Of a stretch of DNA of 26,698 bases, positions 13,801 through 21,902 are shown piece by piece. The translations under genes were made by a program, and so were the position numbers. Position 1 is the stretch's first letter. The number at the start of each line of letters is the position of its first letter. Below the pieces are notes generated by a model. The model did no database searches. It was not told where the DNA came from and saw nothing but the letters and a program-made list of their open reading frames with translations. Origin of the DNA: a virus; IMG/VR virus record IMGVR_UViG_3300046028_003165, positions 1 to 26,698 of that record; one strand, given 5' to 3'.

Positions 13801-15362
13801 GCGTGACGATTGCCCCCGGCTTCAAAGTAAACAACTTGATTCGCGATTCAATCCAGGCGCTGGCTGTTAGCGACCTAAAGCGCAATCCATTTGCCAACGT
13901 GATTGAGGGCTGGGCCGCCACGGATAAAAACAATCCTGCGCACATCTCTGCTCTGGCCGGTGGTGCAATCTTTAACTTTGGCTCGGCTTATGAAGGCGAC
14001 CAGTCCAGGTTGATCAAGCGTTTGCTGGCTCAGGGCGTCAAGGGTGAGCATATCTTGGACACCCAAGAAAAGATTAAAGCCGGCCTGAACGTCGCTTGGG
14101 ATAAGTACCAGGAATGGGGCAACAAATCTGAAGCTGCTAACCGTATGGCTTTGTACAACCAGATGCGCGAGCGTAAGTTAACGCACCTCCAGGCGGCGTT
14201 TGCTGCCAGGGATCTGTTGGACTTCTCAATGCAGGGTTCGTGGCCGGCGTTTAGATTGGTGACCCAAGTGGTGCCGTTTATGAATGCCCGCGTCCAAGGC
14301 TTGTATAAGCTGGGCCGTGATGGTGTAACTCCTACGGCGCGCGTTTTGTACAACACCGTGACCGGCAAACCCATTGAGCAGACGGACAAGCAGAAAGCTG
14401 AAGCGTTTGGCTACACCACACTAGCTGTGGCCGGTGCGTCCATGGCTTTGTACATGATGTTCAAAGACGACGAAGACTACAAGAAGAGAGACGAATGGGA
14501 CCGCGATAACTTCTGGTGGTTTAAGTTGCCCGGTATGGACTTCGCATTCCGTGTACCCAAGCCGTTTGAAATTGGCGCATTTGGAACCATGGCCGAGCGC
14601 GTCCTGGAGCAGATCGTTGACCAGGAAGCAGAAGGCAAACAGTTTGGCGACAGTATCAAGCGCATGCTGGGTGATACGTTTGCTTTGAATCCTGTGCCGC
14701 AGATATTTAAACCGGTGCTGGATTTGTACGCCAACAAAGATAGCTTTACCGGCTCACCTATTGAGAGCGCCGGCATGGAGCGCCTGTCTAAGCAGGAGCG
14801 CGCAGCTGATACAACTAGCCCGCTGGCCATAGCTTTGGGCGGTATGACCGCAATCCTGGGTGAGAAGGGCGAGCTGTCGCCCGTCCAGGTGGACTATGCA
14901 ATCAAGGCCTACTTTGGTTGGCTGGGTAGCACGGCTGCGGTTACAAGTCATTACGCCGTTATGCCGTTTAATGATGGTGATTATCCTGATGCCAAGTGGC
15001 TGGACCGCGCTAGTCTGGGGTTGGTTAAGTCATTGCCATCTAACCAGTCGCGCTATGCCACTGCGTTCTATGAGAACAACCGTCAGATTAGCCAAGCCTT
15101 TGCCGACATGCGCCACTATGCTGAATCCAATCAAACGGATAAAGTTATGCAGATCATGGAAGAGAAGGGCGACAAGATTGCTTTGGCTAAAATTTACGAT
15201 CAGACAGCCAAGAAGATGGCTGCGATACGTAAACAGATCCGCGAAGTCAACGCCAACGAAGGACTGTCCGGCTCAGACAAACGCGAAGAAATTGACCGCT
15301 TGAAAGAGTTGATTGGCATGTACGCCGAGCAAGCTGAGTCACTACGCAAATCTCTTAAATGA
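7812..15362 (+). CDS. Giant polyvalent virion protein with zincin metallopeptidase domain
   Basis: 2516 residues, the largest gene in the window, probably packed in the virion and ejected. Regions: a short helical start (1-34); Gly/Ala-rich hydrophobic segments at about 138-170, 185-215 and 285-302 that could cross or disturb a membrane; a charged coiled-coil region (330-560) with an internal duplication near 428 and 543; a DPLRHSYFYDR segment near 1214; a zincin site HEMGH at 1452-1456 with EWYAD at 1526-1530, whose acidic residue could be the third zinc ligand; and a long C-terminal part with NLIRDSIQALAVSD (about 2009) and AARDLLDFSMQGSWPAF (about 2133), resembling the LPD38 domain of phage polyvalent proteins. 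The stop lies just before the convergent hairpin. The peptidase fold is well supported. Its substrate is unknown. Confidence 0.75.
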   Translation: MADMQTLYRALQNAHAAGDVQAATQIATYIKSMQGQAEPLPAEPTFLGSAKAAAVRGFEAVPESAAGIGLGIKAALGMRESASKQAEDIRAQAQAEANKPQGVSFADLEKAYQEQGLLSAAKKVPSYLTEQVLQSAPSMAVPLAAGIGAAAVSGPFAPIVGPVAGIGTYGLQQFGNFMRRQAEEGATGETLAPGKAAATAAVTAPIGYFADRLMLGFGNVPEKILGQQVAAELAKRAGVRAATGATVGVVAEAPTEVLEQMGERWQAGLPLKGDDAMREYKEAFFGAAAVGGVGGAAAGALRKPTVTPEPEPEAYKPPVSLTGKTPAEMFREQAAGRQGMGADVMGAAREREAAAAKARQDELDAQRATQERAAGLFEQQAAPRNEDLMQAARVRADEKAAADEELRVQAEKEAKAKRDAEAKATAAATYSGDPALNAIRRDEQLATLGYQMSRDKQGNDVVVPIPPAGRDIAAERAAQEAKIAEGRRADEVRQSLAGTTANEDLMASIRQRQADQAAAAAKAEQDKKAAEATDIQSRVNGIMATAYSRDPIMNNARQREALGELGYELKLDKKGNLTPQPKPATPAVTPTSLTLEKPPETPAVTTTPAVREEYPSLTQAEVDELGLIPPAKVVTPKEPKVDYFNHPDNIGHDAAAKRELDEKGKLAVAPQPVTEGGVPFKSRKSADMARKNYPEMRVLPTKDKKGFILAPKTPKQIAADEAKAKRLGLAKTSATGVPMSAHEYITSEGGLVKSEMSDLGMDKNIRVGNRFLFAGEGKGISMEEAYTKLQEAGYLGENATQNDARKMITDSVKKPQYRPQDVEEMTKRDEEKRFADYLKAEEEASLYSPIDEELGYEMSDFDGTGYDAAEPDVQAEVRALLAQADELGIDTASIQEEVFYETENQSVQAYYKAFKSALEDTITAGREDSVQDTGQPSDEGAGLELTQPSVEEIVAKQDAAIKAEKDRKAVDRAAEEKAKADEAAADFVLTGSDRDADVAASLGQTDIFAEPAKPRAPPELKPPEGFKTKEGRKQQVVLAARELQAGRITKEQFDEYVDFYMPIGTIPNPERPMSQSDMKLVLQTNQISKMNAPIADGTPVGLRMDINALGRAKSQGLTGSVVAIHPENNPNSPISYSSAARIQNVRFSIRNQKAAMKVATQAEPTISKSGNKVDQGNKSPQQTMEGNWVSITPEEAYAMVQRLLKDKAWSQVSFDPLRHSYFYDRATKQPVIAADDVIQIGRFVLAKNVQYSDRGEFLYMLRDATPEQIAFVDAGAEGVNGQVVWQRGSLALVRGWNKRTGNPVYVAIKDFTRNNFDIDTQQGTNGLTDAETKELRQVRLDLETADAQAEAENPFIKFDKNGLAFSKNMPPKIAGVVKGWKEMLGINNNIYITTIPDARVDAHNMTGQWRAVGSAALDYRLAGSMRQMPNGDYYIAMTPSSSITSMLEIMAHEMGHMHQFEVFNKAPAETQAAIKAEYDKWLASTKGKTARELVNSLRAKTTAKTTDISEGAMAAHMDPYWFNFKEWYADQVSRWALTSDKPVGVVEQFFKRLADSLRAFYAKVKNAGYLPNETFKKYLEAANEAAQKAQDMTIPPIISQDAQMEMFMLKEAGDTAAKVAASVKAAAQQKLQKREPINREALSDMDADYVKKLGEVFNPQTKTIIDRIAGMRDGFWRRAAQGIADQYRTIKDYSEEAYMMARLSKTVDGALEGLLMHGHVYNNGGALDIKGKTKGLFEAMKPVGAETDRYMMWIALGRESRLPIEKRSPNLAPLLADRDQLVQGEINGRPRLEVYQEVQQDMNALNKSVLDVAYNAGLMDKAAYERFSQDLFYIPFYKQMESGDLQDAATASGLTSQKFSAELKGQSDKPFGDLMENTLRNWSHILSASMKNQASNATLNAAMEAGAAIPNLKVGLAWEDGQVVSTKSGEVVGDGSLRPEYMEAGKGMVKTMINGQPAYFEVLDPMLLDSITSIGYLGPKSKFLDVARDFKNLLQYGVTIAPGFKVNNLIRDSIQALAVSDLKRNPFANVIEGWAATDKNNPAHISALAGGAIFNFGSAYEGDQSRLIKRLLAQGVKGEHILDTQEKIKAGLNVAWDKYQEWGNKSEAANRMALYNQMRERKLTHLQAAFAARDLLDFSMQGSWPAFRLVTQVVPFMNARVQGLYKLGRDGVTPTARVLYNTVTGKPIEQTDKQKAEAFGYTTLAVAGASMALYMMFKDDEDYKKRDEWDRDNFWWFKLPGMDFAFRVPKPFEIGAFGTMAERVLEQIVDQEAEGKQFGDSIKRMLGDTFALNPVPQIFKPVLDLYANKDSFTGSPIESAGMERLSKQERAADTTSPLAIALGGMTAILGEKGELSPVQVDYAIKAYFGWLGSTAAVTSHYAVMPFNDGDYPDAKWLDRASLGLVKSLPSNQSRYATAFYENNRQISQAFADMRHYAESNQTDKVMQIMEEKGDKIALAKIYDQTAKKMAAIRKQIREVNANEGLSGSDKREEIDRLKELIGMYAEQAESLRKSLK

Positions 15363-21260: not shown

Positions 21261-21384
21261 CAACACGCATGGGGATTGGCGCCAGTCCTCAGTCGTGTTG
21301 GTGGTAAGCGGGTTAGCGCCGCGCGTTGTTCCTTAGTTCGGTTTTAGCGCCCACACTGCTTCATGTGCCCACCAACAATTTTTT
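21261..21384 (+). other. Non-coding segment with competing RNA pairings
   Basis: CAACACG (21261-21267) can pair with CGTGTTG (21294-21300). Part of that same segment, TGTTGGTGG (21296-21304), is also a perfect 9-base complement of CCACCAACA (21369-21377), which is followed by six T (21379-21384). The two helices cannot form together, as in a switch or attenuator. An inner segment GGATTGGCGCCAGTCC (21273-21288) is nearly self-complementary. No promoter for it is obvious and the preceding terminator would block read-through, so transcription is uncertain. Confidence 0.35.
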
Positions 21385-21393
21385 CATAGGGTA

Positions 21394-21424
21394 TTGACAA
21401 ATCTATACATTTGTTTGATACAAT
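21394..21424 (+). promoter_or_regulatory. Likely promoter of a small RNA
   Basis: A perfect -35 TTGACA (21394-21399) is followed by GATACAAT (21417-21424). The -10 is either GATACA at 17 bases or TACAAT, the better match, at 19. No open reading frame with a ribosome binding site follows. A structured, terminated segment does. Confidence 0.65.
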
Positions 21425-21429
21425 TCATC

Positions 21430-21585
21430 CATCAACGGATTGGTAACCCGTTGTAGTTCGTTGAAACGACATCCCGAACCCTTATTGAAGGAGCGGGCTT
21501 CGTCAAAGCTAGGATGCCCTGTCAACGCAGGCTCTTATGCGGCAACCAAGCCTAAAGCTCGTATCTTTCAATAAGGGTTTTTTGC
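21430..21585 (+). ncRNA. Putative structured small RNA
   Basis: The segment lies between a promoter with TTGACA and a T run. Helices seen: CAACGG/CCGTTG (21433-21438 with 21448-21453), TCGT/ACGA (21458-21461 with 21466-21469), and a perfect 13-bp closing stem (21477-21489 with 21567-21579) that runs into six T and so doubles as the terminator. Inside it are GAGC/GCTC, GGCTT/AAGCC and a CCTG/CAGG hairpin whose loop TCAACG (21522-21527) complements CGTTGA at 21459-21464, a possible pseudoknot. No ORF with a ribosome binding site is present. I cannot assign it to a known RNA family. The start is estimated from the promoter. Confidence 0.65.
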
Positions 21586-21604
21586 TTTTTAGCCACCACT
21601 CGTC

Positions 21605-21853
21605 AGAGCGCGTTAGCTAATAGGCCAATGTCGGGGCCGTACTCAAGAAACCGATGGCGCTTTAATAGACCCCCGGCGCCGCAGCGTTTCGTAGCGACTG
21701 CATAAAACGACCAAGCAAACCGACAATCAGCGTCTGGCCCACGACACGGGCGGTCGATAGTTGAATACGACGTTCCGCGAGCAGCAGGTTTCGACTGGCT
21801 GGTGACTTCCACATATCTGTGCAAAGGGTACAGGTCGGGAGTCTCGGGGGTCT
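21605..21853. other. Non-coding region with long-range complementary segments
   Basis: Two adjacent blocks look folded. Block one is closed by AGAGCGC (21605-21611) with GCGCTTT (21657-21663). Block two is closed by a perfect 9-bp pair, AGACCCCCG (21667-21675) with CGGGGGTCT (21845-21853). Inside block two lie in-order hairpins: GCAGCG/CGACTGC (21681-21701), GCCC/GGGC (21737-21751), GTCG/CGAC (21753-21770), CAGCAG/CTGGCTG (21782-21801) and GACTTCC/GGGAGTC (21804-21843). This looks like a multi-branched RNA, but no separate promoter or terminator is clear. It may be part of a longer transcript from 21394, or a DNA site such as an origin. The minus-strand open frame here is not credible. Confidence 0.45.
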
Positions 21854-21872
21854 GCTATCGCTATACGTACTG

Positions 21873-21902
21873 CCTGTTATAAATAAACAGGAACAACCTG
21901 TT
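21873..21902. repeat. Alternating inverted repeats overlapping a -35 box (candidate operator)
   Basis: CCTGTT (21873-21878), AACAGG (21886-21891) and CCTGTT (21897-21902) occur in a row. The pair AACAGG-N5-CCTGTT reaches into the -35 hexamer of the rightward promoter. This is what an operator for a dimeric repressor would look like. Confidence 0.55.

Follow-up and report, generated by a model that had tools for sequence, protein, structure and literature searches.

A predicted structured small RNA carried as an exchangeable cassette by uncultured lake phages

Genes and signals at the locus

The DNA analysed here (the window, the whole stretch of 26,698 bases) is the IMG/VR virus record IMGVR_UViG_3300046028_003165, from a phage of lake origin. 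The RNA described below lies between leftward recombination genes on its left (exonuclease, ERF and SSB) and an array of small rightward genes on its right, a position between two transcription units that an earlier note on the same DNA had already recognized. The window segment 22658-23005 (+) is predicted to encode a homologue of the C-terminal domain of the RNA polymerase alpha subunit (PF03118, E 1e-21); in a comparison with the PDB, residues 53-111 of the product match alpha subunits from bacteria. The features of the locus, with the RNA of the window designated class A, are the following:

21382-21602 (+): exchangeable cassette of promoter, RNA and terminator, delimited by homology breaks in L002-L007
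21394-21399 (+): -35 box TTGACA, read from the sequence; kept in most, not all, homologues
21419-21424 (+): -10 box TACAAT after a long spacer of 19 nt, read from the sequence; at a fixed place in 68/70 homologues
21431-21583 (+): class A RNA, predicted mature extent; start placed from the -10 box, end from the T-run
21433-21453 (+): 5' hairpin P1, loop with TTGGT at 21440-21444; both-side changes in 4/6 pairs
21459-21464 (+): pseudoknot strand 1, CGTTGA; 6/6 pairs covary with 21522-21527
21477-21500 (+): 5' half of the closing stem P2; covariation in helices 4-6
21508-21540 (+): variable hairpin P3, loop with pseudoknot strand 2, TCAACG, at 21522-21527; covariation
21541-21552 (+): hairpin P4, GGC-AACCAA-GCC; loop with ACCAA at 21545-21549, a possible pairing partner of the P1 loop
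21555-21583 (+): 3' half of P2 and the T6 run, terminator-like, read from the sequence; T-run of 4-7 in 70/70 homologues
21584-21885 (+): conserved non-coding stretch, candidate second RNA, conserved in relatives; a neighbour outside the cassette RNA

Taken together, these signals support a sigma-70-type promoter and a terminator-like closing stem that bracket a predicted structured small RNA of about 155 nt without an ORF. The earlier note had described a perfect TTGACA, an ORF-free segment, nested helices and a perfect 13-bp stem running into six T, and all four descriptions hold. No ORF of at least 50 aa is found within 21394-21590. The 13-bp stem is formed by 21477-21489 with 21567-21579, and the six T occupy 21578-21583, two of them also belonging to the stem. 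The segment 21429-21590 folds at -59.9 kcal/mol, compared to -40.3 +/- 3.9 kcal/mol for dinucleotide-shuffled sequences (z -5.0). Folded by itself, the 3' domain reaches z -6.1, and none of 200 shuffles attains the native stability.

Homologues and covariation of the class A RNA

The first homologue search used the closing-stem pattern alone and returned 11 viral contigs. A pattern of the two loop motifs returned 83, including several near-duplicates and one false match (L148), which was excluded as it does not show the class A architecture. The RNA is thus not the orphan it was taken for: homologues occur on 82 IMG/VR contigs, and interchangeable classes occupy the same slot. The class A set comprises 70 distinct sequences, the window's own included. 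Every homologue is a metagenomic contig, and the gene calls in them are mechanical. As the collecting patterns fix some motifs, class diversity and counts are lower bounds.

The promoter and terminator signatures are kept in this set, as expected from the RNA's own promoter and terminator-like stem that had been proposed. A -10 box with at least 5/6 matches stands at a near-fixed distance 5' of P1 in 68 of the 70 homologues, where about 10 would be expected by shuffling, and a run of 4-7 T follows the closing stem in all 70. The -35 box is less constant, the best-fitting spacing ranging from 15 to 19.

Covariation in homologues had been set beforehand as the test of the stems. In an alignment of 26 diverse homologues, scored on a structure with both tertiary contacts, 95.2% of the base-pair cells are paired. 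Pairs changed on both sides number 24 against 16.9 in shuffled alignments (0/500 shuffles as high), and the covariation score is 0.354 against 0.114. Sliding the partner columns by 1-3 positions destroys the signal.

The proposed pseudoknot between TCAACG and CGTTGA shows covariation at all six pairs. Its mean complementarity over the 70 sequences is 6.05, compared to 4.25 +/- 0.11 after random reassignment of partners among the sequences, in a pairing register that is nearly always identical. Kinship among the sequences inflates such shuffle tests, but the positions show three to five standard pair types, a variety that would be hard to explain without selection on the pairing. The only clear loss occurs in L149, possibly an assembly chimera or a recombinant, which was left out of the covariation alignment.

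A second contact is predicted between the P1 loop (UUGGU) and the P4 loop (ACCAA). It is invariant in class A, which follows from the search pattern, as this fixed both motifs. In divergent members, however (L056, L059, L061 and L242-L246, recovered by a covariance model or a looser pattern and partly sharing contigs), it reads UGGC/GCCA, a compensated change that lends the putative loop contact modest support. In three sequences (L016, L036 and L041) a C for U abolishes the outer pair. Covariation does not distinguish intramolecular from intermolecular loop contacts.

The Rfam scan that the earlier note had called for (Rfam 15, 4227 families, curated gathering score) gave no match for the RNA in the window. 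With curated and relaxed thresholds over the window and the homologous loci, matches fall outside the RNA, and those below cut-off were set aside as chance. Neither the window nor any of 55 homologous loci yielded a tRNA or tmRNA with ARAGORN. Comparison of the class A, B and C RNAs with cultured phages by blastn gave nothing or short chance matches, without a homologue. The two matches of the two-loop pattern in GTDB genomes were judged chance, as their sequence does not contain the RNA, and a class A model had zero matches in 349 genomes of one bacterial order, in a run without a positive control. Stem-closed RNAs were also sought in portions of four distant relatives that have been sequenced (DSL-LC04, Pag-Yong1, MW202675 and HTVC023P), and nothing convincing was seen by inspection. 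No description of the class A RNA was found in the open-licence literature. Within the databases searchable, the class A RNA appears to be restricted to uncultured phages.

Exchange of RNA classes in the slot

For comparison of the slot, the neighbouring exonuclease was used as a lead to collect 80 relatives. In the near relatives L002-L007 homology to the window ends at 21381 and restarts at 21603; in L008 it breaks at 21378 and in L009 at 21252. The replacement DNA of L002-L009 holds another promoter and another structured RNA, of the sequence classes B and C. By inspection, a glutaredoxin-like reading frame lies 5' of the alternative RNA in this DNA. The content of the slot is exchanged as a unit, in the manner of an autonomous phage RNA cassette.

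Four class B and C examples fold with z from -4.4 to -7.6, and the classes have a plan in common, in which the loop of a 5' hairpin is complementary to a strand inside the terminator-closed domain. For class C this complementarity amounts to 7.25, compared to 5.94 +/- 0.14 for shuffled partners (49 sequences). For class B it was seen by inspection only (GTAGTGA/TCACTAC, GTAGGAA/TTCCTAC and GTGATGG/CCATCAC); the automatic score of 4.84 versus 4.82 is uninformative, as the partner strand lay beyond the end of the extracted segment. The common plan proves neither shared ancestry nor shared function. Still, unrelated sequences built on one plan replace each other in a single slot, which suggests selection on shape, and to our knowledge few such cases of RNA are known.

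A mechanical scan found a promoter with a stem-closed RNA in the slot of 45 of the 61 relatives with enough sequence; the controls gave 2/61 for the opposite strand and 3/61 for the gene side. Being strict, the scan overlooks some visible cases, L013 and L026 among them. Class A is present as one sense-strand copy in each of the records searched whole, where extra opposite-strand matches reflect the stem, and it is absent from the 13 class B or C records searched whole.

Further candidates for stem-closed RNAs were noticed elsewhere in the genomes, namely in L065 at 14264-14394 (+), where the strands GGCGGTTAC and GTAACCGCC are complementary, in L067 near 13619 and in L071 near 13220 (+). Two motifs, GCGSGTTAGCG and CACTGCTTYATGTG, are recurrent in the surroundings of the slot in many relatives (window sites 21308-21318, 21608-21618 and 21354-21367) and are not over-represented in the window.

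The exchange bears on how the RNA may act. Its size, its own promoter and an intrinsic-terminator end with a U-tail would suit an sRNA of the conventional antisense type, with host or phage mRNA as its pairing target. However, the loops would be occupied by internal contacts, and the classes using the same slot have no exposed seed in common, so that we regard this explanation as very improbable. A folded object acting in trans is preferred over antisense because close relatives swap in RNAs of other sequence and the same architecture.

The downstream RNA and the interpretation of the cassette

At most class A loci a second conserved non-coding stretch, roughly 250-400 nt long, begins within about 5-20 nt past the T-run. 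These stretches form a few sequence families (e.g. at L083, L096, L097, L100, L106 and L114). In the largest family the outer stem stays paired despite changes of sequence, and a tRNA T-arm is present in several members. At L100 a tRNA match to Rfam is embedded in the downstream RNA, and at L097 and L106 the downstream RNA matches the Rfam family Betaproteobacteria-1 (RF02932). From this match comes our guess that the hosts are freshwater betaproteobacteria. By eye, the bacterial Betaproteobacteria-1 loci inspected have no class A RNA upstream. In the window, 21584-21885 is not significantly folded alone (z -0.95).

At these loci no separate promoter for the second RNA is visible. For this reason the closing stem, which had been proposed to double as terminator and retains its T-run throughout the homologues, may act as a regulated terminator and not as a final one. 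This leads to the main rival explanation, a cis-acting leader or attenuator. The closing stem would terminate unless a factor or ligand blocks its folding, and would thereby gate read-through to the second RNA and to the early genes on the right. That the second RNA lies directly 3' with no visible promoter is easier to reconcile with a leader or co-transcript than with a cassette standing alone. In addition, the next annotated-like genes downstream are mostly on the same strand as the RNA, and antitermination often controls early phage operons. On the other hand, the closing stem is very stable, and the prefix fold without its 3' half shows no strong conserved antiterminator, although a factor-dependent switch would be invisible to this test. 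The downstream elements also vary between loci while the small RNA stays, and at some loci the next conserved ORF, according to mechanical gene calls, is on the opposite strand. Attenuation of the downstream RNA is thus a tentative possibility that we consider improbable on balance. The gene 5' of the RNA varies as well among homologues, including by inspection several nuclease- or resolvase-like kinds and a primase-like protein, among others.

Alternatively, the small and the downstream RNA could act together in a larger assembly, with loop contacts that may be intermolecular, as in the GOLLD and ROOL cages. The covarying outer stem and T-arms of the downstream families, the embedded tRNA match and the Betaproteobacteria-1 matches are in line with such an assembly. 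Neither RNA, however, matches the Rfam covariance models of GOLLD or ROOL, the covariation is blind to the intermolecular nature of the contacts, and among L002-L009 the class of the small RNA switches while the downstream stretch is kept. A joint assembly is therefore judged unlikely.

For the RNA of the window, we favour a self-contained cassette of uncultured lake phages, an 'RNA moron' whose RNA would work in trans as a folded object, and hold this reading at about an even chance. It is backed by the covariation of the helices and the pseudoknot, the compensated kissing contact, the fixed -10 box and T-run, the exact exchange of units, the several classes with one plan, the single copy per record and the slot occupancy. 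In the proposed mechanism, the host sigma-70 RNA polymerase would transcribe the RNA, probably early in infection. The loop of the 5' hairpin would then dock on the loop of an inner hairpin, and the strand that follows would pair with a second inner loop. Both RNA ends would thereby be locked in a compact, probably nuclease-resistant fold. The folded RNA would most likely bind or decoy a host protein or ribonucleoprotein.

A broader and doubtful extension is that the slot is an RNA-only diversification locus, in which the phages of one lineage would each bear one of several sequence-unrelated but architecture-matched kissing-loop RNAs, swapped as cassettes and set beside a large T-arm-bearing RNA, as an RNA-based device of host takeover or counter-defence. 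The slot RNAs are carried by most members of one lake-phage lineage. They represent RNA families new to Rfam that show strong covariation and for which no cultured representative was found. Next to the class A RNA a second and larger RNA locus is marked, and through both loci it becomes directly testable what structured RNA does in phage infection.

Several known systems resemble the class A RNA in part. The pRNA of phi29-type phages is a phage RNA with complementary loops and a variable sequence on a kept fold. The class A RNA is similar in size, also has complementary loops and keeps its fold despite sequence change. In contrast to pRNA, it does not match the phi29-type pRNA model in Rfam, and the annotations of distant relatives of the window phage name both terminase subunits, large and small. 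Phage morons are extra protein-coding units with their own promoter and terminator that are gained or lost as a block. The class A cassette likewise carries promoter and terminator signatures of its own and moves as a block, but it is predicted to yield an RNA, and it gives way to a matching block instead of only disappearing. Betaproteobacteria-1, which adjoins the class A RNA 3' at L097 and L106, is of unknown function too; it is a different RNA, whose model the class A RNA does not match. GOLLD and ROOL are phage-encoded structured RNAs of unknown function with kissing loops, sometimes with tRNA parts near or inside them; GOLLD is often over 800 nt, and both match their own Rfam models (PMC12286853). 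The class A RNA shares with them its phage origin, its structure, the predicted kissing loops and the tRNA parts nearby, and differs in that it is unmatched in Rfam and, at about 155 nt, much smaller.
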